Origin: Haloarcula halophila
GTDB lineage: Archaea > Halobacteriota > Halobacteria > Halobacteriales > Haloarculaceae
Direction: 5' to 3'
Assembly: GCF_029278565.1 (NCBI RefSeq)
Contig: NZ_CP119559.1
Span: 1,922,001-1,986,000 of the forward strand
Length of the DNA: 64,000 nucleotides
Under the pieces are notes generated by a model. It did no database searches. It had not been told where the DNA came from and saw only the letters and a list, made by a program, of their open reading frames with translations. Made by a program: the position numbers and the translations under genes. Within the stretch, counting starts at the first letter, position 1. Each line of letters starts with the position of its first letter. Below, piece after piece: positions 6,001 through 38,189 of this stretch.

Positions 6001-7134
6001 TCAGGGCCGGTGGAACTCGATCGCCGCACCCTGGCCGAAGCCGACACACTCGGTCGCCAGTCCCAGGTCGGCGTCCCGGCGGTTCATCTCGTGGACGAGC
6101 GTCACCGGGAGGCGAGCGCCGCTTGCCCCCAGCGGGTGGCCGATGGCGATGGCGCCACCGTTGACGTTGAAGATCTCGTCGTCGAACCCCAGCTCGCGCT
6201 GGCAGTACAGCGTCTGGGAGGCGAAGGCTTCGTTCAGTTCGACCAGGTCGTACTCGTCGGTGTCCCGATCGATCCGCTCGCCCAGTTTGCGGACGGCAGG
6301 GACCGGCCCGATCCCCATGACCGTCGGATCGACGCCGGCGACCTCGTGGGCACCGATCTCGGCTAAGATCTCCAGGTCCCGCTCCTCGGCGAACGCCCGG
6401 GAGGTGACCATGAGGCCCGCGGCCCCGTCCGAGACCTGCGAGGCGTTGCCCGGCGTGACTGTCCCGTCGGACTTGAACACCGTCGGGAGGCCCGAGAGCT
6501 TCTCCAGGGAGGTGTCACGGCGGATACCCTCGTCTTCCTCGATGCGGCCCTCGTCGGTCTCGACGGGAACGATCTCGTCGTCGAAGCGCCCTTCGTCGGT
6601 CGCCGCTGCGGCCCGCTCGTGGCTCCGCAGGGCGTACTCGTCCTGTGCCTGGCGGGCGACGTCTTTCTCATCGGCGACTTTCTCGGCGGTCATCCCCATC
6701 TGGAGTTCGCCGATGTTGTACAGGTCGGCCAGCCGCGGATGGACGTTGTGGGTGTTCTCGCCCATCTTCACGCGGGACATCGACTCGACGCCGCCGGCGA
6801 TCAGGACTTCGCGCTGGCCCGCAGCGACGGCGTCGGCCGCCCGCATCAACGCCTCCGCCGAGGAGGCACACCAGCGGTTGACCGTCGATCCGGGGACCGA
6901 CTCGCCCAGATCCGACAGCAGCGAGATCACGCGGGCAAGGTTGTTCCCCTGCTCGCCCCGCTGCTGGGCACAGCCCCACAGCAGGTCGTCGACCTCGTCG
7001 GACTCGACGCCGGTACTGGCGAGCAACTGGTTGACGAGCGGGATCGAGAGCTCCTCGCTGCGAACCTCCGCGTACGCGCCGTCTTCTTTCCCCTGTGGCG
7101 TCCGTACCGCGTCGACGATAACCGGTGTTGGCAT
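6001..7134 (-). CDS. Acetyl-CoA C-acyltransferase (thiolase)
   Basis: This 377-residue thiolase starts at ATG (MPTPVIVDAVRTPQGK). A TTG-initiated 13-residue extension upstream is not needed, since the family starts at VIVDAVRTP. The nucleophilic cysteine is Cys89 in VNRWCASS. The C-terminal catalytic His lies in NGGAIAIGHPLGASGAR, and the proton-shuttle Cys in CVGFGQGAA. The enzyme condenses or cleaves acyl-CoA and acetyl-CoA, as in beta-oxidation or polyester precursor synthesis. Length and motifs are complete. The missing third glycine of the usual CxGxGxG (CVGFGQG here) is common in haloarchaeal copies. No beta-oxidation operon is adjacent. Confidence 0.92.
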   Translation of the reverse strand: MPTPVIVDAVRTPQGKEDGAYAEVRSEELSIPLVNQLLASTGVESDEVDDLLWGCAQQRGEQGNNLARVISLLSDLGESVPGSTVNRWCASSAEALMRAADAVAAGQREVLIAGGVESMSRVKMGENTHNVHPRLADLYNIGELQMGMTAEKVADEKDVARQAQDEYALRSHERAAAATDEGRFDDEIVPVETDEGRIEEDEGIRRDTSLEKLSGLPTVFKSDGTVTPGNASQVSDGAAGLMVTSRAFAEERDLEILAEIGAHEVAGVDPTVMGIGPVPAVRKLGERIDRDTDEYDLVELNEAFASQTLYCQRELGFDDEIFNVNGGAIAIGHPLGASGARLPVTLVHEMNRRDADLGLATECVGFGQGAAIEFHRP

Positions 7135-7227
7135 GGCCGAATCAACGCCCCCGTTCGTGTTAAACCCTGACAAACTCGCAACCGGGTGCGGAGAGTTGTC
7201 CGCCTCGTGACGGCGGCGTCTTCACGA

Positions 7228-7695
7228 TCAGCCGTCGGCGAAACCCGGCGGCAACCCGGTGTGTTTTATGCCGCTGCGTTCCTCGATCTGGAACCGATAG
7301 ACGACGATCTCCGCGGACTCGGCGAGGCGCTCGAACAGGTCGGGTCGCCACGCTCCGTCGAGGATCGTTTCGAGGCCCTCGACCGCCGACTCGCGGACTC
7401 GTTCCGGGCGTCCTGCCAGGACGACACTCTCCCAGTTGAACATCGACCGCACGTCGTAGACGAGAAAGCCCGCCTGCTCGGTGTCCTCGATGAGCCGTCG
7501 TTTCCGGCTGTCGGGACCGCCGACGAAGGTGAAATACAGCGACTCGTCGTCGTAGCCATACGAGATCGGAACCATGTACGGTGCCCCCTCGGCCGGCAGA
7601 CCGAGGACCCCGACTTGCTGGCTCGCGACGAACGCCCCGATGGCCTCGTCGTCCATCCGTGCCAGTCCGGCCGCTTCGAGTGAATCGACTGTCAT
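7228..7695 (-). CDS. Pyridoxamine 5'-phosphate oxidase family protein (FMN-binding split barrel)
   Basis: This 155-residue split-barrel protein contains QQVGVLGLPAEGAPYMVPISYGY (about residues 26-48) followed by LYFTFVGGPDSRKRRLIEDT and VVLAGRPERV. This strand and loop pattern is typical of small haloarchaeal flavin-binding PNPOx-like proteins. The FMN site normally involves the PISY strand and the SRKRR loop. It probably binds FMN or F420 and acts as a small reductase or sensor; true pyridoxamine oxidation is unlikely at this length. The ATG (MTVDSLEAAG) is close to an upstream TATA-like AT patch. It stands alone between the thiolase and the DUF1508 protein. Confidence 0.85.
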   Translation of the reverse strand: MTVDSLEAAGLARMDDEAIGAFVASQQVGVLGLPAEGAPYMVPISYGYDDESLYFTFVGGPDSRKRRLIEDTEQAGFLVYDVRSMFNWESVVLAGRPERVRESAVEGLETILDGAWRPDLFERLAESAEIVVYRFQIEERSGIKHTGLPPGFADG

Positions 7696-7759
7696 ATCTG
7701 CAACTTCGCCGAAATCCCGGTTAAGTAGTCCGGGGATTCTCCCCAGCGGGGAACGGCCG

Positions 7760-9349
7760 TTACTCGGCCGTTTCGGCGCCCGGTGCGTGGCGTTTCACGC
7801 TCTGGATGGCGTCGATGGCCTTGTTGCGCTCGGTGTAGCCCTCGCCGCTGTCGGCGAGGATGTTGCCGTTCCGGTGGCGCAGTCGCCAGCGCCACTCGTC
7901 GGCCGCGTCCGCGAACAGTTCGAAGACGGTACTTCCCACCGGGAGCAGGGCCGCGTCGGCCGCGTAGTTCTGGACCCGTTCGAGACCGTCCATGGCCTTG
8001 CTCCGGTTGCTGTAGCCCTGGCCGCTGTCGGCGATGATCTCGCCGTTGGCCGCTTTGAGCCGCCAGCGCCACTTCCCGGCGTTGTCCTCGTAGACCTCGA
8101 ACCCGTCGTCGGTGGTGGCGTCGGGCGCGGTCCGTTGGACACGCTCGGCCGCGTCCCGGGCGCTAGCACGGGTCCTGTAGCCCTCGCCGCTGTCGGCGAG
8201 GATGTTGCCGTTGCGGTGGAGCAACCGCCAGCGGAACTCGCCGGCAGCGTCCGGGTAGACCTCGAACCCGACGGGATCGAGCGTGAGGTAGGGGGCGCCG
8301 GGCACGTACGCCTGGACCCCGTCGAGGCCACGCCGTGCGTTCGATTTCGAGGCGTATCCCTCGCTCCCGTCGGCGATGATGTTCCCGTTGTTGTGGCGCA
8401 GCCGCCAGCGGTAGTCCCCGCCGGCGTCCTCGTAGACCTCGTAGGTCGCCTGGCTCTCCTCGGCCGGAATCTCGGGAACGTCCTCGGGGGTGTCGTCCTC
8501 GGTGGCCGCGGGCAGGACGACGACCCCGCCGCCGACGGCGTTGGACTGGACGCTTCGCAGGCCCTGCATCGCCTTCTGCCGGGAGGCGTATCCCTGCGCG
8601 CTGTCGGCGATGACGTTGGAGTTCCGGTGGCGGAGCCGCCAGCGGTGTTTGCCGGCCTTGTCGGTGTACACCTCGAAGGTCGCCTTCGAATCCATCGCGG
8701 CGGCGATGGTCTCCTGTGCGGCGGTCAGTTCGGCCTCGGTGGCGTCTAGGACCGTCGTCATCTCTTCACGGGTCGCCTCGCTGGTCGCCAGCTTCTCGGT
8801 CAGCGAATCGCGTTCACGTGTCGCCCGCGTCGCGGTTTCGGTGGCCTCCTCGGCGGCCTGCCTGGCCTCCTCGGCCTCCTCCGTCGCGGCTTCCGCGGTC
8901 GCCTTCATCCGTTCGTACTCCTCCCGGCGCCCGGTCAACAGCGGGGCGACGACGGCGCCGACCGCGGTCAGGAGCAGTCCGAGCAGGTACACCGATATCA
9001 CGCCGGTGTGACCGCTCGGCCCCGCCCAGTTCGAGGGGTAGACCGTCGTGAACCAGACGACGCCGGCCAGACAGACGACGGCCCCGAGATACGAGAGGAT
9101 CAGCGCTCGCCGCGTCAACTGGAGTCGGAGTGTCGGTCCGACGATGAGAGCGACTAGTCCGATCGCCCCCGAGATGTAGCCCAACTGTCGGGGGAGTGAA
9201 TTATCAGGTGAGAAGTAAAACAGCAGTAGGCCGGCGATACCCAGGAGGATACCGACCACGAACAGCCAGTATCCGTAGGCTTCGTCGTCTGTTGTCGGCT
9301 CACCGATTCGACCACGGTACATCCGGACAAGGGGACTCCCCGATGACAT
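7760..9349 (-). CDS. Membrane-anchored coiled-coil protein with five DUF1508 (YegP/HVO_2922-type) repeats
   Basis: This 529-residue protein is modular. Four membrane segments lie near residues 27-47, 55-73, 82-101 and 116-138. A charged alanine/glutamate-rich coiled coil covers about 142-222. Five DUF1508 units follow at about 224-270, 302-348, 361-407, 417-463 and 475-522. Each repeat reads like FEVYxDxAGxxRWRLRHRNGNIIADSGEGY followed by a helix. Stand-alone family members usually have one or two copies and no membrane anchor. The acidic linker after repeat 1 (about 281-301) would separate a proximal repeat from the other four. The promoter TATA is at 9369-9380, giving a leaderless transcript. 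Function is unknown; a surface or cytoplasmic scaffold is possible. Confidence 0.85.
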   Translation of the reverse strand: MSSGSPLVRMYRGRIGEPTTDDEAYGYWLFVVGILLGIAGLLLFYFSPDNSLPRQLGYISGAIGLVALIVGPTLRLQLTRRALILSYLGAVVCLAGVVWFTTVYPSNWAGPSGHTGVISVYLLGLLLTAVGAVVAPLLTGRREEYERMKATAEAATEEAEEARQAAEEATETATRATRERDSLTEKLATSEATREEMTTVLDATEAELTAAQETIAAAMDSKATFEVYTDKAGKHRWRLRHRNSNVIADSAQGYASRQKAMQGLRSVQSNAVGGGVVVLPAATEDDTPEDVPEIPAEESQATYEVYEDAGGDYRWRLRHNNGNIIADGSEGYASKSNARRGLDGVQAYVPGAPYLTLDPVGFEVYPDAAGEFRWRLLHRNGNILADSGEGYRTRASARDAAERVQRTAPDATTDDGFEVYEDNAGKWRWRLKAANGEIIADSGQGYSNRSKAMDGLERVQNYAADAALLPVGSTVFELFADAADEWRWRLRHRNGNILADSGEGYTERNKAIDAIQSVKRHAPGAETAE

Positions 9350-9368
9350 ATCATTGACTTCTCATTCT

Positions 9369-9415
9369 GGATATATATCTCTTTGTGTGCCCACCTCGCT
9401 TCGTGTCACTTATGA
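9369..9415. promoter_or_regulatory. Divergent promoters for the DUF1508 protein and the AAA+ ATPase
   Basis: The 91-bp gap between the two starts holds a TATA box for the minus-strand gene (GATATATATC, within 9369-9380), about 26 bp before its ATG at 9349. A weaker TATA for the plus-strand gene (ACTTATGA, 9408-9415) lies about 26 bp before the ATG at 9441. Both spacings fit leaderless haloarchaeal transcripts. No separate operator is obvious. Confidence 0.6.
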
Positions 9416-9440
9416 CCGTCGCGGCACAACACCTGTGGGA

Positions 9441-10778
9441 ATGAGCAACCCGGAACTGGACGTCGTCGAGTTCCTGTTGACGACGGCCGTCTACACCGAC
9501 CGACGGGACCTCGAACCGGACGACCTCCCGGCGGCCTACCGGACGGTGTTCTGGAGCGACGGGACGATCGAACGACCGCTGTCTGCGACGGAATCGACGG
9601 CCAGCGAGGCGACGGGTGTCGACCAGCCCTGGAACGCCGTCTCGGGGCTGATGTTCACCGACCGGGACGACTTCTCGGGGACGATGTCGTTTACGAACCG
9701 CGAGATGGCGGAGGAGTGGTTCCTCGACCGCGTCGACGCCGACCACCTCTCGAAGAACCCCGTCCTCGCGGCGGAGTTCGACCACGAGGTCGACGACCTC
9801 GACTACGAGCGGGCACGTGAGCACAACCGTCCGGCACGGGCCGACCGGGCGTTCATCGACGCCATGCTGGAGGAGGCGTTCGACACCGAGGACGAGGACG
9901 ACGAGGAGATGCTGGATCTCGTCGATGTCCGCGCGCCCGAGGAAGTCGAGATGACGATGAACGACCTCGTCCTCACTCCCGACCAGGAGGGTGAGATCCA
10001 GAAGATCGTCAAGGCGATCGAACACCGTGACTATCTCGCACAGATCGGGCTGCGTGAGATCGGGAAACTCCTCTTTGTCGGCCCGCCCGGAACCGGCAAG
10101 ACCAGCGTCGCCCGCGCGTTGGCCCACGACCTGGACCTCCCGTTCGTCGAGGTGAAGCTGTCGATGATCACCTCGCAGTATCTCGGCGAGACTGCCAAGA
10201 ACGTCGAGAAAGTCTTCGAGGTAGCGAAACGGCTCTCGCCGTGTATCCTCTTCATGGACGAGTTCGACTTCGTCGCGAAGACCCGCTCGTCGGACGAACA
10301 CGCCGCGATCAAGCGGGCGGTCAACACGCTGCTCAAGAGCATCGACGAGATCTCGCTCATCCAGGACGAGGTGTTGCTCATCGGTGCGACCAACCATCCC
10401 GACCAACTCGACGCCGCCGCCTGGCGGCGGTTCGACGAAATCGTCAACTTCCCCAAACCCGACCACGACATGCGGGCCGACATCCTGCGGATCATCACCC
10501 GCGAGATGGACATCCTCGATTTCGACCCGTCGACACTGGCGGATCTCACGGAGGGACTGACCGGCAGCGACCTCCGTCTGGTCCTCCGGGAGGCCGTCTT
10601 GGAGGCGCTGACCGAGGAACGGACGACGCTGACCCAGCAGGATCTCGAAGACGCCGTCACCGACTTCGAGGAGCGTGACAACCTGAAGAACATGGACATG
10701 ATCGAGGGCGACCACGACGCGCTGGTCGCCGGTGGGGACTTCTCCGAGGCGGACGGCGGCCACGATCACGACCACTGA
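9441..10778 (+). CDS. AAA+ ATPase with haloarchaeal N-terminal domain
   Basis: This 445-residue protein starts at ATG 9441 (MSNPELDVVE). The upstream in-frame extension is rejected because it would cross the promoter. Residues 1-165 form an unfamiliar acidic domain rich in D/E. Residues 170-400 are a classical AAA+ module: Walker A GPPGTGKT (214-221), Walker B FMDEFD (271-276), sensor 1 GATN (315-318), the arginine-bearing RRFD (329-332), and a C-terminal helical lid. The tail ends HDHDH. The module resembles proteasome/Cdc48-type unfoldases but has only one ATPase ring and no known adaptor domain. It probably remodels a protein in the cytoplasm; the substrate is unknown. Confidence 0.87.
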   Translation: MSNPELDVVEFLLTTAVYTDRRDLEPDDLPAAYRTVFWSDGTIERPLSATESTASEATGVDQPWNAVSGLMFTDRDDFSGTMSFTNREMAEEWFLDRVDADHLSKNPVLAAEFDHEVDDLDYERAREHNRPARADRAFIDAMLEEAFDTEDEDDEEMLDLVDVRAPEEVEMTMNDLVLTPDQEGEIQKIVKAIEHRDYLAQIGLREIGKLLFVGPPGTGKTSVARALAHDLDLPFVEVKLSMITSQYLGETAKNVEKVFEVAKRLSPCILFMDEFDFVAKTRSSDEHAAIKRAVNTLLKSIDEISLIQDEVLLIGATNHPDQLDAAAWRRFDEIVNFPKPDHDMRADILRIITREMDILDFDPSTLADLTEGLTGSDLRLVLREAVLEALTEERTTLTQQDLEDAVTDFEERDNLKNMDMIEGDHDALVAGGDFSEADGGHDHDH

Positions 10779-10819
10779 CCGGCAGTAACACGTATCTACG
10801 TGCCCCGCGTCCGACAGCT

Positions 10820-11095
10820 ATGGCAGACGACGCGTTCACAGACACCGGCGAGACGGTCGAGGACTGGGTCGACGTGCGGATGACCGACCCCGAACAGGGC
10901 GAGTGGGACATCGACGCGGTGGTCGCGGGCGGCCGGGTCGAGTACGTGGACCTGCGGATCGACCCCGCGCTGTTGTCGGGGTTCATCGAGTGCCTCCTTA
11001 CGGATGTTGCTGCGGAACGGGCGGCGACAGTTCTCGCCAGGACCGCCGATAGACTGGACCTCGACCCCGAGGAGATCGCCGACCGGACGGAGTAG
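10820..11095 (+). CDS. Small conserved-looking haloarchaeal protein of unknown function
   Basis: This 91-residue acidic protein opens MADDAFTDTGETVEDWVD. A beta-rich middle (WDIDAVVAGGRVEYVDLRI) and a C-terminal helix (SGFIECLLTDVAAERAATVL) follow. There is no signal peptide, membrane segment or recognised motif. The gene lies 41 bp after the AAA+ gene on the same strand and may be transcribed with it. The reading frame is supported by strong GC3 codon bias and acidic composition. I do not recognise the family. Confidence 0.65.
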   Translation: MADDAFTDTGETVEDWVDVRMTDPEQGEWDIDAVVAGGRVEYVDLRIDPALLSGFIECLLTDVAAERAATVLARTADRLDLDPEEIADRTE

Positions 11096-11178
11096 TCGGC
11101 TCCGGGGGAGCGACAGCCGCGACGCCGTCCCGATCCGAAGCGGGGGGCTTAGGGCGGTCGCTCACACAGGGGGAGGTG

Positions 11179-12051
11179 ATGGAGGTCACACTGCTGGGGA
11201 CCGGCGACACGACCGGGACGCCGACCGTCGACTGCGACTGTGACACCTGTGAGCGAGCGCGTGCGCCCGACGCGGAGCTACGCGAGCGTGTCCGCGAGCG
11301 CGGTATCGATCCCACCGACGGCGTCGAACGCTCCCGGTTCTCGGTGTTCGTCCGGAGCGAGTCGGGGGAGTCGCTGCTGATCGACTGTAGCCCCGACTTC
11401 CGCCAGCAGTTCCTCGACGCGGACGTGGGCCTGCCCGACGCTGCCCTCGTCACGCATATCCACTTCGATCACCTCGACGGGCTGGGCAACGCGTATCGGC
11501 TGTTCGACGACCTGCCGGTGTACGCCGCCGACGAGACCGATCCCGTCACCGGGGAAAGCGTCGCCGGGGGGATCCGGAGCCGATACGATTACCTCGACAC
11601 CGTTACCGTCCGGCCACAGACGCCCTACGAGCCGTTCTCGGTGGCTGGGCTGGAGGTGACTCTCGTCCCCGTCGAACACCCGCCGCTCGTCTGTTACGGC
11701 CTGCGTATCGAGGAGCCGGCGACCGGAGCCGTCCTCTCGATCTCCGGGGACACGTGTTACGATGTCCCCGAACGGTCCCGGGAACTGCTCTCGGGGGCGG
11801 ATCTGGCGCTGGTCGAGGGGATCGTCCACCCCGAAGCCTGCGAGTTCCACCCGAAAGGCGGGGCTGACTTCGACGACGAGGGCGTGCCACGGACGTTCGG
11901 AACCAAACACATGACACTGCCCGGTGCCCGACAGTTCGCCGCCGACATCGGCGCCCAGGAGTACCGCATCGTCCACACTGCCCACTACGTTCCGGCCGAC
12001 CGGGCGTTCGCCGACGACATCGCGCTCGACGGCGAGCGGTTCTCGCTGTAG
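11179..12051 (+). CDS. PhnP-like MBL-fold phosphodiesterase / hydrolase
   Basis: This 290-residue protein starts at ATG 11179, preceded by GGGAGG; a GTG one codon earlier overlaps it. It opens with MEVTLLGTGDTTGTPTVDCDC, the signature of the PhnP/RNase Z-like branch of metallo-beta-lactamases. The Cys pairs in DCDCDTC may bind zinc. The catalytic metal motif THIHFDHLDG lies near residue 94, and further ligands lie in EHPP, SGDTCYD and the C-terminal HTAHY. PhnP acts on cyclic phosphodiesters from phosphonate breakdown, but no C-P lyase genes are nearby. The in vivo substrate is therefore open. Confidence 0.85.
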   Translation: MEVTLLGTGDTTGTPTVDCDCDTCERARAPDAELRERVRERGIDPTDGVERSRFSVFVRSESGESLLIDCSPDFRQQFLDADVGLPDAALVTHIHFDHLDGLGNAYRLFDDLPVYAADETDPVTGESVAGGIRSRYDYLDTVTVRPQTPYEPFSVAGLEVTLVPVEHPPLVCYGLRIEEPATGAVLSISGDTCYDVPERSRELLSGADLALVEGIVHPEACEFHPKGGADFDDEGVPRTFGTKHMTLPGARQFAADIGAQEYRIVHTAHYVPADRAFADDIALDGERFSL

Positions 12052-12132
12052 TCGAGTCTCCGACCGATTCCTGAGAGACGACACCGCTACACGGACCGTA
12101 CCCCTTTGTGCGATGGGGACACAACGACACGC

Positions 12133-12438
12133 ATGGACAGGCGCGGGATCGCCGAAGTCGTCGGTGCGGCACTGGTCAGCGGTGGGATCGCAGTCGCGGG
12201 ACTCCGACTGTTCGCCGGGGAGATCAACTGGTTGCTCGTGATCGGTCTCGTCGCGAGCGTGAGTCTGGCCGCCGCAGCGAACTACCGTGGTCGGACCGGC
12301 CACGCCGAACAGGTCGCCGCCGAGGCGCCCGACGCGACCGCGGAGGCCGTCGAGGCACACGCGCCGGACAGAGCGGGTGAGGGCGGTGAACCACTCGATA
12401 GGGCGGCCGACCGGAGCGCCACGGAACGGGACGACTGA
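12133..12438 (+). CDS. Small two-TM membrane protein
   Basis: This 101-residue protein starts at ATG 12133 (MDRRGIAEVVG). Nine upstream in-frame codons are probably not translated. Two hydrophobic segments (about 9-24 and 31-48) form a hairpin. A hydrophilic, alanine/glutamate-rich tail of about 50 residues (HAEQVAAEAPDATAEAVEAH) is probably cytoplasmic. It has no recognised domain. It converges with the DUF5787 gene, with 9 bp between stop codons. Confidence 0.65.
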   Translation: MDRRGIAEVVGAALVSGGIAVAGLRLFAGEINWLLVIGLVASVSLAAAANYRGRTGHAEQVAAEAPDATAEAVEAHAPDRAGEGGEPLDRAADRSATERDD

Positions 12439-12447
12439 ACCCGCGGC

Positions 12448-13398
12448 TCACCCGAAACGGTCGAGGCCGGACTGACGGCGGGCACGGCCTGCGGGGGTCG
12501 GGTCCCACGGTGTTCGCTCGGCGCGCAGCGTGTCACCGTCGACGGCGGGCGGGTCCGCGGGTTCGTACCCATCGCAACTGGCTCCACAGTCGTCGCTCGC
12601 CCGGACCGCTCGGTCCAACCAGGCACAGTAGGGCCGACCGTCGGCGTCGGGCCTACACCGCGTACAGCCCGGATAGTCGAAGCTGCGCCACCCTTTCGCG
12701 TAGGCCCGTTCGGCGATCCGGCGACGCGCCCTGGCTTTCGCCCCCGCGTCGACGATCCGGATGTCCGTCCGGCCGGCGTGCGAGTCGAGCGGTTCGACGC
12801 CGGGTTCGTCGGGCCGGAGCGTGGTCGGCTCCCGAACCACCTCCCGATCGTCGGTCTCCGGGTCGAACCGCCAGACACCGACGGCGTCCGGGAGACGGTT
12901 GAGGTGTGCGCGGGTGACATACGAGGCCGTCGCAAGCACTACTTCGTCGGCCAGTGCCAGCGACACGTCGGTTCGGAGCTGTCGCTGTAGATCGCCTGGT
13001 CGGCCGAGGTCGGGTTTGTTCTCGATCGCGGTGATCCCGCCGATCCAGTCGGGATACCGGGTCGTCTGGCGGACGTAGGTCCGGCCACCGCGGCGCTCCC
13101 GCTCGAAGAAGCCCCGCTCGACGGCCAGTTCGACGGCCCGTTCGGCACGATCCGGATGGCAGTCGAAGGCCGATTTCCAGTAGCGGGCCTCACCCGGTCC
13201 AACGTCGGACTCGACGGCGGCCGTCGGGAGCCGCTCGGCCGTGATCGCGGCCCGCTCCGGGAACTCCGGGCCGGGATCGATCACGACCGTATCGAGCACT
13301 CGACGACCGTGGACGTGGCCACCCAGTTGTCGGCTGACGAGGCGTCCCTCGCGTTCGAGGTGGGCACACAGCGCCAGTTCGAAGTCGAACTCCCGCAC
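12448..13398 (-). CDS. DUF5787-like protein with PD-(D/E)xK-type nuclease motif and C-terminal cysteine cluster
   Basis: I start this gene at GTG 13398 (MREFDFELALCAHLE, 316 residues), since the haloarchaeal DUF5787 family begins at REFxFELALCAHLE. A further GTG 25 codons upstream gives a low-complexity leader. Residues 117-128 read DWIGGITAIENK, with Asp117 and Glu126-x-Lys128 spaced like the active site of a PD-(D/E)xK nuclease, followed by a glutamine-rich helix (DLQRQLRTD). Near the C-terminus are Cys245, Cys248, Cys258, Cys271 and Cys275, a zinc or Fe-S-like cluster. Nuclease activity is an inference. No restriction or CRISPR partner is adjacent. Confidence 0.75.
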   Translation of the reverse strand: MREFDFELALCAHLEREGRLVSRQLGGHVHGRRVLDTVVIDPGPEFPERAAITAERLPTAAVESDVGPGEARYWKSAFDCHPDRAERAVELAVERGFFERERRGGRTYVRQTTRYPDWIGGITAIENKPDLGRPGDLQRQLRTDVSLALADEVVLATASYVTRAHLNRLPDAVGVWRFDPETDDREVVREPTTLRPDEPGVEPLDSHAGRTDIRIVDAGAKARARRRIAERAYAKGWRSFDYPGCTRCRPDADGRPYCAWLDRAVRASDDCGASCDGYEPADPPAVDGDTLRAERTPWDPTPAGRARRQSGLDRFG

Positions 13399-13569
13399 AG
13401 CCACAGGAAGGGGCGCTGCCGGCAAAAGCAGCCCGCCTGTCCCTGCGGTCGCGCCGCTCGCGGGGGGAGACACCTCGGCCGCCGCCGGAAAGCCCGTACA
13501 GAACGCGGTTCTCTAGATCGTTTCTCCCTCTCCCGCGGTTTTTTCAGCCCGTGAAGCCGCTGTTGGAAG

Positions 13570-13576
13570 TTTATTA
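13570..13576 (+). promoter_or_regulatory. TATA box for the stand-alone receiver-domain gene
   Basis: TTTATTA lies about 28 bp before ATG 13602, the standard spacing for a leaderless haloarchaeal transcript. This favours 13602 over the upstream GTG at 13551, which would lie ahead of the TATA box. The rest of the 203-bp gap from 13399 is GC-rich and shows nothing else. Confidence 0.6.
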
Positions 13577-13601
13577 CACGGGGGATCGGAGTGAGCAGCA
13601 C

Positions 13602-14003
13602 ATGGGGATGGTTACCTGCGACGCCGACAACGGCGCCGGGGAACGCACGCGCCGCGTCCTCGTCGTCGACGACGAGCCGATGGTAGCGACCGCTGTCGCC
13701 GAGTACCTCGAAGCAGTCGCCGACGCACTGGAGGTGGTCCACACGACGGCACCGACGACGGCGCTCGAACGCCTCGACGGGTCGTTCGACTGCGTCGTGA
13801 CCGACTACGAGATGCCACAACTCGACGGATTGACGCTCATCGATCGAGCCGAGACCGACGCCGCGTTCGTCGTCTTCTCGGGCGTCGACGACGAGTCCGT
13901 GGCCCAGCAGGCTCGCGACCGCGGGGCGATCTTCGTCTCGAAGGGGGCTGGGACTGACCAGTACGACGAACTCGCGACGCTCGTCTGCGAGCAGGTGACC
14001 TGA
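13602..14003 (+). CDS. Stand-alone response-regulator receiver (CheY-like) domain
   Basis: This 133-residue protein consists almost entirely of a receiver domain. The acidic pocket is in VLVVDDEP and the phospho-acceptor Asp in CVVTDYEMPQLDG. The switch Thr/Ser is replaced by FSGVD, and the conserved Lys lies in FVSKGAG. It has no DNA-binding output domain. It probably relays a signal from a histidine kinase encoded elsewhere, as is common for haloarchaeal single-domain receivers. The start at 13602 is chosen from the TATA position. It is divergent from the DUF5787 gene. Confidence 0.88.
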   Translation: MGMVTCDADNGAGERTRRVLVVDDEPMVATAVAEYLEAVADALEVVHTTAPTTALERLDGSFDCVVTDYEMPQLDGLTLIDRAETDAAFVVFSGVDDESVAQQARDRGAIFVSKGAGTDQYDELATLVCEQVT

Positions 14004-32936: not shown

Positions 32937-34022
32937 TCAGGCCTCCGGTTCGAACACCCCTGGGTTCTTGGGACCTTCGCGGTTGATGATCGCCAACATC
33001 CCCTTGCGGGCGACCCGCGAGAGCGCGTGGTCGACCAGCTTGATCGGTCCCGGGACCTCCGCGTGCAGCGTCGCGATGGCACAGGAACCGGGCTTGACCG
33101 GCGTCGTCTGGACGAACTTGTTGGCCGGGCCGGCGATGGCCCCCTGTTGCCAGACTTCGTCCCACACCGAGCCGATGGGGTGGAAGCTCGAATCGAGGTT
33201 CGGGCCGCCGGTGACGAAGTACACCCGCGCGGTCTCGCCAGTCTTGATCGACGGGGAGCCGTACCGGTCGGGCGTGATGGCGTACTTCTCGCCGTTCATG
33301 AGGACGTAGGTCGGGTCCTCGGCTTTCATCGACTCGATGTCGAAGTCGTGGTGGCCCTCCTCGCCGGCCTCGCCTTTGGTGTACAGTTCGTGCTGGCCGA
33401 AGTAGAACTCGTGGTCGACCTCGGGCAGCCCGTCCTTTGGCTCGACCAGGATCATGCCGAACATCCCCGAGGAGATGTGCATGTCCATGTTCGGGACCGC
33501 ACAGTGGTAGATGAACGCGCCGGGGTAGGTGGCCTTGAACCGGAAGGTCTTGGTCTGGCCCGGCGTGACCATCGACGCCTCCGCGCCGCCGCCGGTCCCG
33601 CGCACGGCGTGGAGGTCGATGTTGTGGGGCATCGAGTTGCTCTCCTCGTTGGTGACGGTCAACTCGACGGTGTCGCCACGGCGGACCCGGATCATCGGCC
33701 CCGGCACCTGCCCGTCGAAGGTCATGTACGTGTACGTGACCCCCGGTTCGACCTCGGCGACCTGCTCTTTGGTCGTCATCTCGATCGAGTGAGTCGTCGG
33801 CTCCGACCGGTCGATGGGGCCGGGGATGTCGGTCGGGTCGGCGGCGATACGGTCGACGTCGGTCGATTTCGCTTGGGTCATGGCTGGTTCCTGGGGCGTG
33901 GTGCGTTCGGCGGTCTGTTCGGTCTCGGCGCCGGGTGCCTGTGCACAGCCGGCGACCGCTGCAGTACTGACTCCGAGCGCCTGGAGCACCCGGCGTCGCG
34001 TCGCCGTCGGGATGGATGACAT
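32937..34022 (-). CDS. nirK: Copper-containing nitrite reductase NirK
   Basis: The start is ATG 34022, with a clear Shine-Dalgarno (GGAGGT, 34031-34036 on the minus strand); 361 residues. The Tat leader [10 protein letters not shown] is followed by the lipobox AVAGC (Cys26), so the enzyme is lipid-anchored outside. Type 1 copper ligands are His133, Cys174, His182 and Met187 ([10 protein letters not shown]...). Type 2 ligands are His138, His173 and probably His332 (LVDHAL). Catalytic Asp136 and His281 are present. It reduces nitrite to nitric oxide in denitrification. No nor or nos genes are adjacent. The upstream region carries an array of palindromes. Confidence 0.95.
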
Positions 34023-34049
34023 CGGTGTGGACCTCCGTACACGTAGGGA

Positions 34050-34137
34050 TGTGTCGCCGTGACACATATACCGAGAACCCTGCTCTCAGGGCGTGAGAGT
34101 GGTTCTCAGGCGACGAGAACCGCAACGAACGTGTTCG
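34050..34137 (-). promoter_or_regulatory. nirK control region: TATA box plus several inverted repeats
   Basis: On the minus strand, moving upstream from nirK, there are four elements. TGTGTC/GACACA (34050-34066) overlaps the TATA box at about 34065-34071. A nested palindrome, GAGAACC (34073-34079) with GGTTCTC (34101-34107), encloses CTCTCA/TGAGAG (34083-34099). A further GAGAACC lies at 34115-34121. CGAACGTGTTCG (34126-34137) pairs CGAAC with GTTCG. As I recall, haloarchaeal NarO sites upstream of denitrification genes pair the same half-sites with a longer spacer. The density suggests oxygen/nitrate-dependent control by more than one factor. Confidence 0.6.
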
Positions 34138-34152
34138 GCTCTGGGATGTGTT

Positions 34153-35301
34153 CTACCGGAGGCGGCTCACCAGCCCACCCGTCGGTCGCGATCCCTCCCG
34201 CCGTCGGTGACGAAGGCGACTCCTGCCGACTATCGCGCTCCCGACGAGATAGAACGGGACGACGATCGAGCCCAGCGTGCCGATCGTCGGAAGCAACGGG
34301 TGCTTGCTGTAGAGTTCCGTCAGCAGCGACGTTGGAAGGACTGCGACGTACCGGTGTGTGGTGAGCAACCGCTGGTAGCTGCCGGTATCGGCGGGCGCAT
34401 GCAGCGTCACGGTGATCTCACGCTGGCTCTGTGGCGGAACCCGGACGACCCGATCCGACACGTCGACTCCGTCGCCGGGGACGAGATAGACGACGTTCGG
34501 GAGGTAACTCGGGTTCCTGAGCTGCCGTGTCCGGGGCTTGGACTCCCCGGCGGGGATGACGTCCGCCCGTTCGGAGTCGAAGCTCGAACTGACGATCGCC
34601 ATTTCAGTCGTGCCGCCCTGGACGACTGTCGGGGCCACCAACCCGGCCGCCAAGACGAGCGCACAGGCGGCGACGAGCACCCGGGGATCGAGTCCCTGCG
34701 AGCGGCTCCGATCGGTGTCACGGTCCCGCTCGTCGCGTGTCCCGAACACGCTGTCGAACCCGAGGTACCCGAACGCCGCCACTGCGAGTACCGTCAACAC
34801 CCCTTCTGTCCCCAGAAACAGTTCGGTGCCGGACCAGCGGGCGAGTGTCAACTGAGCACCTTGGACCGTGTTCTTGATAGCGTTGATCCCGCTTCCCAGC
34901 GCGGGGATCGCGACGATCCGGCCGTTGATCTGGAGCACTTCCGCGACGATCTGGTGGTCGCGAACCGGGGGCTCCCCGGCCGTCTGATCGGTAATCGCGT
35001 TCGCGTCCCCCTTGGTGACGTACCCCTTCTCCGTGGTGCCGACCACCCGGTGTGTCGTCAACCCACCACCCTGGATCTCTTCGGCCTCGAAGACGATCAC
35101 GTCGCCCGGCTCCGGCGGGCCGGTAAGCGGGCTGGGGACCGCGACGAACCCGTCGTCGGGTTCCAGCGCCGGGTCCATGCTCCCGGTCCGAACGAACCCG
35201 AGCAGGACGGGCTGTCCGAGCAGTTGTCCGACAAGCAAGGCTAAGACGACGAGTACGAGTACCGTCTCGACCGCGTTCGTGATCCCCTCCCGTATCGACA
35301 T
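34153..35301 (-). CDS. S26 (Sec11/SipW-type) signal peptidase with long C-terminal membrane extension
   Basis: This 382-residue protein has an N-terminal membrane helix (10-32) and a type I signal peptidase core of the archaeal/SipW type. Nucleophile Ser41 is in RTGSMDPAL, His84 in LTTHRVVG, and Asp99 in YVTKGDAN. The His in place of Lys marks the S26B class. The core ends near residue 150. Residues 150-382 add about three more helices (164-180, 208-227 and 343-365) and an extracellular beta-rich domain (230-340). It lies 43 bp downstream of the secreted DUF1102-like gene on the same strand, suggesting a dedicated peptidase. Generic haloarchaeal Sec11 is much shorter. Confidence 0.9.
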   Translation of the reverse strand: MSIREGITNAVETVLVLVVLALLVGQLLGQPVLLGFVRTGSMDPALEPDDGFVAVPSPLTGPPEPGDVIVFEAEEIQGGGLTTHRVVGTTEKGYVTKGDANAITDQTAGEPPVRDHQIVAEVLQINGRIVAIPALGSGINAIKNTVQGAQLTLARWSGTELFLGTEGVLTVLAVAAFGYLGFDSVFGTRDERDRDTDRSRSQGLDPRVLVAACALVLAAGLVAPTVVQGGTTEMAIVSSSFDSERADVIPAGESKPRTRQLRNPSYLPNVVYLVPGDGVDVSDRVVRVPPQSQREITVTLHAPADTGSYQRLLTTHRYVAVLPTSLLTELYSKHPLLPTIGTLGSIVVPFYLVGSAIVGRSRLRHRRREGSRPTGGLVSRLR

Positions 35302-35344
35302 CTAGCCGTTCCCTGAGTGATTGTCGGGTGGCCGCCCGATCCGA

Positions 35345-36127
35345 TTACTCTTGTCCGGGATCGGCGGCCTCGTTCGCGTTGACGACGAACTGACTGGTGA
35401 GATCGAACTCACCGGTCGTGTCGCTATCGGTCGTATCGACCTGTAGCGAGACGTACACCGATTCTCCCGACGGCACCGCTTCGTTTGGATCGTTCGCGTT
35501 GTTGAAACTCAGGGCCTGATCCGGGTCCGTCTGGCCATCGGTGGGATCATCCAGATCCAGTGCCGTCGTTTCGGTCGAAGTCGCCGAATCGACCTGGCTC
35601 GGATCCGGGGAACTCGCACCCTGGATTTCCGTCGCCACGCCCTGCAGGTACACTGTTGCACCCGAAGCTTCCGACGTTTCCTGTAAGCCGACCTCTATGT
35701 CGAGGGCCTGGTCTGTCTGGTTCTCGATGACGAACGCCGATTGGTCGGTCCCGTCGTCGTAGGGCCATCCATCTCCGGCCGCCGCCGGGTTCGTGTCTCC
35801 GTCGTAGAGGCTGCTGAAAGCGACGCTATCGCCCTGTGCGTCGTCGTCCATCGCACCCAACTGGAAGCGAGCCTGGTCGTTGACTCCGGTCCCGCTACCA
35901 CTATCTTCACTGAAGTCGATGTACAGGTCACCGTTTTCGTATCCGATCTTGTCACCGATGCCTCGAGCACCTCCGGGACTGAGGCTGATGTAGGCCATAT
36001 CGTCGTTTGCCACGCCGATATCACCGTCTCTCCCGACAGTCGCAGCCGTGAACGCGCCTGTACCTGATGCGGCCGCCCCGCCGGCGGCGAGCGATCCGAG
36101 TCCGATGAGGAACTTTCGTCGGTCCAT
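35345..36127 (-). CDS. SipW-cognate secreted protein (DUF1102-like, TasA/camelysin-style)
   Basis: This 260-residue protein has a leader MDRRKFLIGLGSLAAGGAAA followed by SGTGAFTAATVGRD, the pattern of substrates of SipW-type signal peptidases. The mature part is acidic and beta-rich (FAVIENQT-like strand SAFVIENQTDQALDIEV, and VYVSLQVDTTD near the end). It resembles haloarchaeal DUF1102 proteins and, more distantly, bacterial TasA fibre proteins. It precedes the peptidase gene in the same transcription unit. It probably forms a surface or filament component. The start ATG lies 42 bp from an inverted repeat (36169-36199). Confidence 0.8.
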   Translation of the reverse strand: MDRRKFLIGLGSLAAGGAAASGTGAFTAATVGRDGDIGVANDDMAYISLSPGGARGIGDKIGYENGDLYIDFSEDSGSGTGVNDQARFQLGAMDDDAQGDSVAFSSLYDGDTNPAAAGDGWPYDDGTDQSAFVIENQTDQALDIEVGLQETSEASGATVYLQGVATEIQGASSPDPSQVDSATSTETTALDLDDPTDGQTDPDQALSFNNANDPNEAVPSGESVYVSLQVDTTDSDTTGEFDLTSQFVVNANEAADPGQE

Positions 36128-36168
36128 CTGTTGTCACCGCCCGCAGTCACCCTGCGAGCGTATCTGTC

Positions 36169-36262
36169 CCTGTATTCCGGAGGGGTGTCGTTATACAGGC
36201 CTATTCGGCGGCTCAACCGGAGGATTTCGTCACTCTGCTGGCGGGGATACGTCGTATTCCCC
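36169..36262. promoter_or_regulatory. Inverted repeats in the divergent region between the SipW-cognate gene and the DUF7344 gene
   Basis: The 317-bp divergent gap holds two repeats. CCTGTAT (36169-36175) pairs with ATACAGG (36193-36199), 42-72 bp ahead of the minus-strand ATG. A near-palindrome follows, GGGGATAC (36243-36250) with GTATTCCCC (36254-36262). The plus-strand promoter is AT-rich near 36385-36410 (GGTATTAATGTATAC). The remaining part shows nothing further. Shared control of the two divergent units is likely. Confidence 0.45.
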
Positions 36263-36444
36263 CCGTCTTTTCCACGGCCGCTAGGTAGTTAGTGACTGGC
36301 CGACCCGCCACACCGGCGGACGAAACCATCCGGTTGATCGGACTCAGCCACCTCAACGACCCATTGAGTTCCCGCCTGTAGGTAAAGTTTCAGTGGGTAT
36401 TAATGTATACTGAGGAGACTGGTCGGACACCGGGGTGGGGGTCA

Positions 36445-37032
36445 ATGCAAGAGGTTATTCAGCCAACCGGAGCGACAGAGTCGAACAGAGGGACAGAAGA
36501 GATCGACGAACTGTTCGATATCATGAGCAACAGTCGCCGGCGTGCGGTATTTCACTATCTCAAGCAGGGCGACGGGACCGACGTCGAGATCAGCAGACTC
36601 TCCAGGGAACTGGCCGCCTGGGAGTGCGGTATCGAGCCCGAACAGGTCTCCTACGACGACCGCCACTCGATCCACACGTCGCTCCGGCAGTTCCATCTCC
36701 CGAAGATGGAGGACGGTGGGATCATCGAGTTCAACGACCAGGGAACGAGTGTCGCGCTCACCGACGAGGCCGACCGGATGGACATCTACGTCGAGGCGGT
36801 GTCGGAAGACGAGGTCAGGTGGTCGACGTACTTCGTCTCGCTCTCGGCCGTCCTGGCGCTCGCGACGGGGGCGGCGATACTCGGTATCCGGCCGCTGACC
36901 GCGCTATCGGCGCAGGGGTTGGTCGTCCTCGAATCGATCGCCTTCACCGTCTCCTCGCTCGTATTCTGGTCCAGCCAGCAAGACGACCTTCTAGGCTCCG
37001 AAGGAGTGCCCCCGCTGTTCTCGGAGGAGTGA
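36445..37032 (+). CDS. DUF7344 helix-turn-helix protein with two C-terminal membrane helices
   Basis: I prefer ATG 36445 (MQEVIQPTGATESNRG, 195 residues) because the likely TATA (about 36396-36410) lies after the alternative ATG at 36403. Residues 20-125 form a winged-helix domain: IDELFDIMSNSRRRAVFHYL, ISRLSRELAAWE, and HTSLRQFHLPKMEDGGIIEF. This is the haloarchaeal DUF7344 pattern. Two membrane segments (about 127-147 and 153-175) anchor it. Three bases separate it from the next secreted protein. It is divergent from the peptidase pair and could regulate the cassette from the membrane. Confidence 0.82.
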   Translation: MQEVIQPTGATESNRGTEEIDELFDIMSNSRRRAVFHYLKQGDGTDVEISRLSRELAAWECGIEPEQVSYDDRHSIHTSLRQFHLPKMEDGGIIEFNDQGTSVALTDEADRMDIYVEAVSEDEVRWSTYFVSLSAVLALATGAAILGIRPLTALSAQGLVVLESIAFTVSSLVFWSSQQDDLLGSEGVPPLFSEE

Positions 37033-37035
37033 GCC

Positions 37036-37740
37036 ATGCGTAGACTCCTCGTCTTGCTTGTGGGAAGCGCGCTGGTAGTCGGGGTCTTCTCGGTCGGAAC
37101 CGGCGGCTTCACCGCCGGCCAAGTCGAACGGACGGCCACCGTCGGTATCGTCCCCGACGACCGCGCTGCGCTCGGCTACGACGCCCGCTGCCGGGGCGAC
37201 GATCTGCACGCTACGGTCACGAACCGGGCTGTCGGGGCGGAGCTGGTACTGTCCGTGTCCGTCTCCGGGACCGAGCGACAGGTGACTGTCGGCCCCGCGG
37301 AGTCGGGGACGCTCCGGTTCGTGGGTGTCGAACCGGGGACTCCGGTCACCGTCCGGGCACACAACGAGGACGGAGGGCTGGCGGTCGAACTGGAACGGTC
37401 CGTCCCCGAGGACTGCCGGGACCGGCGCGCGATCAGCTGGATCGCCTTCTGTGGGACTCCGCCCGCTGCCCCACCAGCGGTCGCGGCGACGGACGGTGAC
37501 GGCCCGACCGCGGTCGACTGGACCGACACCGGCGACGGTCCCGTCGTGTACAATGCCGGGCCGACGGTGTACAACACGACCGACGACGGCACCCTCCGTA
37601 GCGGGCAGGGAACTACGATCGGCAGTGCGCGCGGCGGTGCCGGTCAGTTGATATCCAGCCCCTGTGCCGTCGCGGCCGACTCCTCGGGCACGAAGTTCGA
37701 GTACAACAGCTCGACCGGGGCGTTCGAGGTCGGTGGCTGA
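37036..37740 (+). CDS. Second SipW-cognate-type secreted protein
   Basis: This 234-residue protein begins MRRLLVLLVGSALVVGVFSV and continues GTGGFTAGQVERTATVGIV. That is a leader and mature start of the SipW-cognate kind (GTGAF followed by R-T-V-T-V strands). The mature region is beta-rich, with six cysteines (ARCRGDDL, EDCRDRR, AFCGTPP, SSPCAV and others). This is unusual for haloarchaeal secreted proteins and suggests disulfides. It shares a unit with the DUF7344 protein 3 bp upstream. A hairpin overlaps its stop codon. Confidence 0.78.
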   Translation: MRRLLVLLVGSALVVGVFSVGTGGFTAGQVERTATVGIVPDDRAALGYDARCRGDDLHATVTNRAVGAELVLSVSVSGTERQVTVGPAESGTLRFVGVEPGTPVTVRAHNEDGGLAVELERSVPEDCRDRRAISWIAFCGTPPAAPPAVAATDGDGPTAVDWTDTGDGPVVYNAGPTVYNTTDDGTLRSGQGTTIGSARGGAGQLISSPCAVAADSSGTKFEYNSSTGAFEVGG

Positions 37741-37904: not shown

Positions 37905-38189
37905 ATGACCGACGGGACCGACGACCGTGTCCAGGTGTGGCTGGTCGAGCGCACCTACTCCGACGACGAGCAGAACCTCATCATCCTCACGTACGCGACT
38001 CGGGACGGCGAGCAGTACTTCCGCAAGGAGCGTGCGCTCACCTCCTTCACCGACGTTCGGGACACGACGGCGGCCGTCGAGACCGACCCGGGAAATCTCG
38101 GGGCAGTCGAAGACCCCGACCTGCGCGAGCAGTACGCTGCCGAAGCACAGCGGATGGAGCGCGCTCACGACCCTGGGGACGTGATCTGA
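37905..38189 (+). CDS. Small haloarchaeal cytoplasmic protein upstream of rlmE
   Basis: The start is ATG 37905 (MTDGTDDRVQVWLVERTY), 94 residues. A beta-rich N-terminus (NLIILTYATRDGEQYFRKE) is followed by an acidic helical tail (EDPDLREQYAAEAQRMERAH). There is no membrane segment or known motif. It lies 112 bp upstream of rlmE on the same strand. The function is unknown; the reading frame has clear haloarchaeal codon bias. The 165 bp before it, beyond the hairpin, show nothing else. Confidence 0.68.
   Translation: MTDGTDDRVQVWLVERTYSDDEQNLIILTYATRDGEQYFRKERALTSFTDVRDTTAAVETDPGNLGAVEDPDLREQYAAEAQRMERAHDPGDVI

Follow-up and report, generated by a model that had tools for sequence, protein, structure and literature searches.

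Four intact open reading frames (ORFs) at positions 34153-37740 of a 64,000-nucleotide window (the whole stretch of Haloarcula halophila DNA that was analysed) raise the question of what an enlarged signal peptidase, two secreted proteins and a membrane-anchored helix-turn-helix (HTH) protein do together. On the minus strand, the gene of a secreted protein of 260 amino acids (35345-36127) precedes that of the 382-amino-acid peptidase (34153-35301). On the plus strand, a DUF7344 gene encoding the HTH protein of 195 amino acids (36445-37032) is followed by the gene of a second secreted protein of 234 amino acids (37036-37740), with 3 nucleotides between the HTH stop codon and the next ATG. This layout confirms an earlier note that had been made from the letters of the DNA. 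All our results are computational, and we propose that the locus is quite probably a reduced cassette for a surface pilus assembled by donor-strand exchange, of the TasA/AbpA/Tafi type. The earlier note had suggested an uncharacterised surface-filament system. The filament reading is the most likely one in view of fold searches and gene co-occurrence, but the system can no longer be called uncharacterised, given the PDB structure 9p0a, the same gene set at the 9p0a locus and the NCBIfam Taf models.

The pilin candidate and its companion protein

The AlphaFold model of the 260-amino-acid protein, built on 90 relatives, is a beta-sandwich with an unordered N-terminus (predicted local distance difference test, pLDDT, 72; predicted template modelling score, pTM, 0.70). 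Its best Foldseek match, and the sole one below 0.001, is 9p0a (E 2.6e-4), released on 2025-07-23 and titled in the Foldseek library ‘Structure of Natrinema sp. J7-2 Tafi pilus’. When aligned with VIA-align over 147-155 residues, the model gives Z 8.5 with AbpA, 7.5 with 9p0a, 7.2 with the Sulfolobus thread and 5.4 with TasA. The top three places (7ueg, 9p0a and 7pnb) are all archaeal donor-strand filaments, and sandwiches of other functions come at 6.5 and below. A structural search of this kind had been set as a check by the earlier note, and AbpA, the Tafi pilin, the thread pilin and TasA are among the matches. With moderate confidence, these models point to a secreted subunit with the TasA/AbpA/Tafi beta-sandwich.

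Sequence comparison leads to the same structure. Searching the PDB with the 260-amino-acid protein returned one relevant chain, 9p0a, named ‘Pilin’; the phmmer match (1.4e-6) spans the leader and the first ~55 mature residues. Iterated searches with only the mature part gather hundreds of ORFs, a family found in such cassettes. The leader is MDRRKFLIGLGSLAAGGAAASGTGAFTAA (36053-36127, minus strand); in it and shortly after it, residues R3, R4, G22, G24, A25, F26 and R33 are nearly or fully invariant among the 90 relatives, R3 and R4 being the twin-arginine pair. In a second species that shares the cassette (genome G396, locus L200), 28 of the first 30 residues are the same, while the whole protein is 57% identical. 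The 9p0a chain (188 residues, 28 to 215) begins at the homologous Phe of GTGAF, so that the mature pilin candidate should begin at F26; cleavage is thus predicted between GTGA and F26, with Phe as the mature N-terminus. The protein has no cysteine.

The companion protein of 234 amino acids has a hydrophobic signal (residues 4-22) followed by GTGGFTAGQ, and four cysteines at positions 52, 127, 139 and 210. It is indeed the cysteine-containing protein with this leader, divergent from the peptidase and 260-amino-acid protein genes, that the earlier note had picked out. Profile iteration from it reaches LamG-bearing TafC proteins and aligns it with their N-terminal part. We therefore describe it as TafC-type; against the NCBIfam TafC model it scores 0.0066, far below the cut-off.

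Family assignments are otherwise sparse. A Pfam search of the 260-amino-acid protein gave no family, including DUF1102 (PF06510), for which there is no match in the whole genome either. DUF1102 is reached, weakly, by relatives of the protein alone, and the DUF1102-like label used earlier does not hold by the Pfam gathering criteria. The protein does not match the camelysin family (PF12389) either. The matches of both secreted proteins to the NCBIfam Taf models come mainly from the leader and score far under the curated cut-offs, with the leader and N-terminal part of the 260-amino-acid protein matching TafE and TafA. The idea that 9p0a is itself the NCBIfam TafA was rejected, since true TafA matches 9p0a at 0.009 only. 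As a separate observation, TafA is over or near the cut-off in 12 of the 15 named members of the genus that were searched and is absent from the genome studied here.

The cassette in this genome and across Halobacteria

The genome (4.04 Mb) holds a complete paralogous cassette (L015, C1:1459.8-1468.5 kb), in which a TafC-like protein and DUF7344 are divergent from two pilin-like proteins, a membrane-anchored protein, a rhomboid-like protein, a peptidase and DUF5305. The L015 peptidase has 389 amino acids and is 43% identical to the 382-amino-acid enzyme; the DUF5305 is the only one of the genome. A third export cassette lies on the 363-kb replicon (L016, C3:272001-290000, 6689-13807). Its secreted proteins are of the camelysin type (PF12389), unlike the pilin candidate; two of them (473 and 555 amino acids) appear to hold an inserted von Willebrand A-like stretch, and a 338-amino-acid signal peptidase and two DUF7344 genes lie beside them. 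Two Sec11-like signal peptidase genes of the housekeeping kind are also present.

The peptidase alignment, run against named genomes in one scan, retrieved at least 254 relatives. Among the 61 haloarchaeal enlarged-peptidase loci with sufficient flanking sequence, 56 have DUF7344 (54 of them on the opposite strand), 58 have DUF5305, 60 have one or more leader proteins and 27 have a rhomboid-like gene, counts that depend on profiles made from those same loci. As the genome studied here has only eight DUF7344 genes in 4.04 Mb, finding one within a few kb of the peptidase is far from chance. Co-occurrence of the genes, the second check that had been set, is thus wide across Halobacteria. The combination of an enlarged peptidase with a membrane HTH protein is standard across the haloarchaeal cassette family and no peculiarity of this locus. 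What is peculiar here is the reduction, with no DUF5305, anchor protein or rhomboid-like gene in cis at 34153-37740 (nirK follows the peptidase gene instead), and the insertion between nirK and an FtsJ-type gene.

The same arrangement surrounds the solved pilin. At the G190 locus, whose pilin shows 100% identity to 9p0a across the 175 residues compared, the genes of DUF7344 and of a leader protein run divergently from those of the pilin, an anchor-like protein, a 392-amino-acid peptidase and DUF5305. Genomes with a pilin 72-100% identical to these 175 residues follow the same plan (393-codon peptidase frame). Finally, in two other families of the phylum (L217-L221), a DUF7344-like HTH, several DUF1102-like proteins and a peptidase of 341-366 amino acids stand in one row, with the HTH upstream of the operon; one non-haloarchaeal cassette also has a DUF5305-like gene. 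This distribution suggests that the cassette is old.

Several points nonetheless weigh against a pilus at this locus. The cassette lacks DUF5305 and the anchor protein, which nearly all others have; because the only DUF5305 of the genome sits in L015, help in trans is possible. Confidence in the pilin model is moderate, its Z-scores of 7-8.5 are close to the level of unrelated beta-sandwiches, its Foldseek TM-scores are low (0.32/0.41), and the alignment behind it is dominated by the candidate's own family. The curated cut-offs of the NCBIfam TafA, TafC and TafE models (NF052520-NF052522) are missed by the cassette proteins, as they are by the pilin of the solved Tafi locus (77 bits vs 155). 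The missing genes and the quality of the model would also suit non-polymerising surface or matrix proteins, camelysin-like or S-layer-associated, that share leader and sandwich and are only released by the peptidase, with no fibre being made. Indeed, a sandwich fold alone is no proof of polymerisation, and camelysin-type relatives exist in the same genome. We nevertheless consider this improbable: the nearest structural matches of the 260-amino-acid protein are all donor-strand filaments, the segment F26 to R33 after the leader is conserved as expected of a donor strand, and the gene set is that of the solved Tafi pilus locus.

An enlarged peptidase and a putative divergent regulator

The peptidase exceeds the gathering score of Pfam Peptidase_S26 (PF10502). 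Its scores against NCBIfam TIGR02228 (45 bits, cut-off 51.85) and the SipW model (2.1e-6) are both below cut-off, and a PDB sequence search found only unrelated transporters. Ser41, His84, Asp99 and Asp105 are invariant in an alignment of 75 relatives, which together with the Pfam and SipW matches bears out the SipW-like Ser/His/Asp enzyme described earlier, an endoplasmic reticulum-type signal peptidase I. In the AlphaFold model of the whole protein (pLDDT 85.7), the catalytic S26 domain (residues 33-133, 34903-35205, minus strand) aligns over residues 28 to 133/134 with SipA (VIA-align Z 10.9) and LepB (Z 10.4). It is followed by the extension (residues ~135-382), made of helices, a beta-domain (residues 230-319, 34345-34614, minus strand) and a last membrane helix; the whole protein has four predicted membrane helices. 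The strands of the beta-domain are modelled at pLDDT 95+. The order of the helices, the positive-inside rule and two basic segments (187-205 and 359-382) would place this domain outside the cell, and the model agrees with the earlier claim of about 230 additional residues including an extracellular domain.

The beta-domain has a predicted immunoglobulin (Ig) fold of the PapD/MSP type. VIA-align matches it to the MSP domain of VAP-A (Z 6.8) and to the Caf1M chaperone (Z 5.2), MSP domains ranking above chaperones, and Foldseek matches it to the chaperones CupB2 (E 0.0089) and PapD (0.019). Such a predicted PapD-like fold is common, and any chaperone role is putative. The idea of a fused chaperone is attractive because in Bacillus subtilis TapA, an Ig protein coded next to SipW, is the chaperone for TasA (PMC10151520). 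We tentatively raise the possibility, which we hold to be rather doubtful, that the enlarged haloarchaeal SipW serves as a membrane-bound platform for assembly, peptidase and chaperone at once. Its S26 domain would cut the leader, and the outward Ig domain would cap the new subunit until donor strands are exchanged. One chain would then unite the roles of SipW and of TapA/PapD, under a membrane-anchored regulator that might sense pilus assembly.

The HTH protein matches DUF7344 (PF24035, 2.2e-23), with a winged HTH and two predicted C-terminal membrane helices (130-148 and 151-169), so that the divergent, membrane-anchored DUF7344 protein noticed at the outset stands. Of two candidate starts, 36445 is more likely than 36403, since the alignment with the nearest relative's protein begins at the Met encoded at 36445. 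The divergent control region (36128-36444) contains two TATA-like blocks assigned by eye, TGTATAAC at 36190-36197 facing the pilin gene and GTATTAAT at 36397-36404 facing the HTH gene. A near-palindrome, CTCAACG-ACC-CATTGAG (36352-36368), lies beside the HTH promoter and occurs once in the 64 kb against 0.04 expected. The TATA-like blocks and the near-palindrome are kept in the second species. In other loci, beyond these two, the near-palindrome has two scattered matches only and is no general cassette motif.

The DUF7344 protein is likely the local transcription regulator. The three export cassettes of the genome contain four of its eight DUF7344 genes, and a fifth lies among type IV pilins, so that all five long DUF7344 genes adjoin filament-type genes. 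The family may thus regulate other surface filaments too. The fifth gene (L216, C1:2897001-2911000, 6429-8239) is a long, membrane-type one located between two type IV pilin-like genes (AVSPVIGVILMVAITVI). The remaining three DUF7344 genes lack the long C-terminal extension and lie elsewhere, which would suit a protein that accompanies the cassette by shared inheritance while its HTH has its targets elsewhere or serves as an adaptor at the membrane. We find this unlikely, given the position of DUF7344 on the opposite strand in 54/61 loci, its presence beside type IV pilins, its place ahead of the operon in cassettes outside Haloarchaea, and the near-palindrome conserved in the divergent region.

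Recent history, proposed mechanism and known systems

The cassette was inserted recently between nirK and the FtsJ-type gene. Of eight relatives from the genus, five have these two genes side by side and no cassette; two others lack the cassette as well, and nirK could not be located at their site. Only G396 shares the cassette, so that it is present in two of nine genomes, our own included. Between these two species the peptidase is 86% identical, the 234-amino-acid protein 73%, the HTH protein 72% and the pilin, the fastest-diverging protein of the cassette, 57%, against 91-97% for the neighbours. For all four genes the ratio of nonsynonymous to synonymous substitution rates (dN/dS) is ~0.24-0.38, which indicates working genes under purifying selection. 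This selection and the recurrence of the arrangement across Halobacteria argue that the locus is beyond chance. The low conservation of the pilin and the lack of DUF5305 and anchor genes in cis, the sole DUF5305 being in L015, might suggest a decaying or partial copy, either dependent on the complete L015 cassette or already supplanted by it, but this is very unlikely with intact ORFs, purifying selection on all four and both cassette and control region kept in the second species. A pilin that diverges fast next to a slowly changing peptidase is consistent with a surface structure exposed to pressure from outside. On one side of the cassette, directly after the peptidase gene, lies nirK (copper nitrite reductase, 464.6 bits with NCBIfam, 32937-34067). 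A small ORF of 94 amino acids (37905-38189, plus strand) travels with the cassette: among the eight relatives its homologue is found only in L200 (8250-8585), 85% identical and on the opposite side of the cassette.

For the donor-strand pilus, the following mechanism can be proposed. TasA polymerises by an N-terminal strand inserted into the next subunit (PMC9674648). SipW accepts the aromatic cleavage site of TasA, which Escherichia coli LepB rejects (PMC10269814). This logic fits our locus, with a dedicated peptidase for a leader that has Phe at the cut, and then donor-strand assembly. The membrane-anchored DUF7344 winged-HTH protein would control the divergent promoters. Judging from their leaders, the pilin candidate (twin-arginine) and the TafC-type protein (Sec-like) would be exported, and the co-encoded SipW-type peptidase would cut after GTGA or GTGG, leaving an N-terminal Phe, a site placed by homology to the Tafi pilin. 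The freed N-terminal segment (F26-R33 and beyond), disordered in the monomer model, would serve as donor strand and complete the beta-sandwich of the following subunit. The 234-amino-acid protein could be a minor subunit, at the tip or as an adapter. More speculatively, the peptidase might use its outward Ig domain to hold the newly made subunit or pass it on. Altogether, this scheme ties a widespread and mostly unnamed haloarchaeal cassette to one solved pilus and proposes a role for each gene. It also suggests a way in which donor-strand assembly could be controlled in archaea that lack a periplasmic chaperone, and it proposes that DUF7344 proteins anchored in the membrane regulate surface filaments locally.

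The closest known system is the Tafi pilus of Natrinema sp. J7-2 (9p0a), which shares the pilin fold, the leader, the divergent DUF7344, the enlarged peptidase and, following the HTH gene, a leader protein, at 17% identity over the aligned part. It differs by a CARDB-containing anchor-like protein and a DUF5305, both missing from our locus. A literature search found no paper on Taf or Tafi, and the Tafi assignment rests on the PDB title and the NCBIfam names. Among the NCBIfam families, true TafC proteins carry LamG, whereas the 234-amino-acid protein does not. The archaeal bundling pilus AbpA of Pyrobaculum calidifontis (7ueg) gives the best Z over 152 residues, at 12% identity. With the PapD-type pilus chaperones Caf1M, CupB2 and PapD the peptidase extension shares its predicted Ig fold, but here this fold is fused to a peptidase, membrane-bound and a single domain, and it is equally or more like MSP/ASH domains, which are no pilus chaperones. 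Finally, as in the TasA-TapA-SipW system of Bacillus, a SipW-type peptidase is encoded beside a donor-strand fibre subunit with an aromatic residue at the cleavage site. While Bacillus SipW has no outside domain and leaves the chaperone-like Ig fold to the separate TapA (PMC10151520), the haloarchaeal peptidase carries a predicted Ig domain in its own chain.

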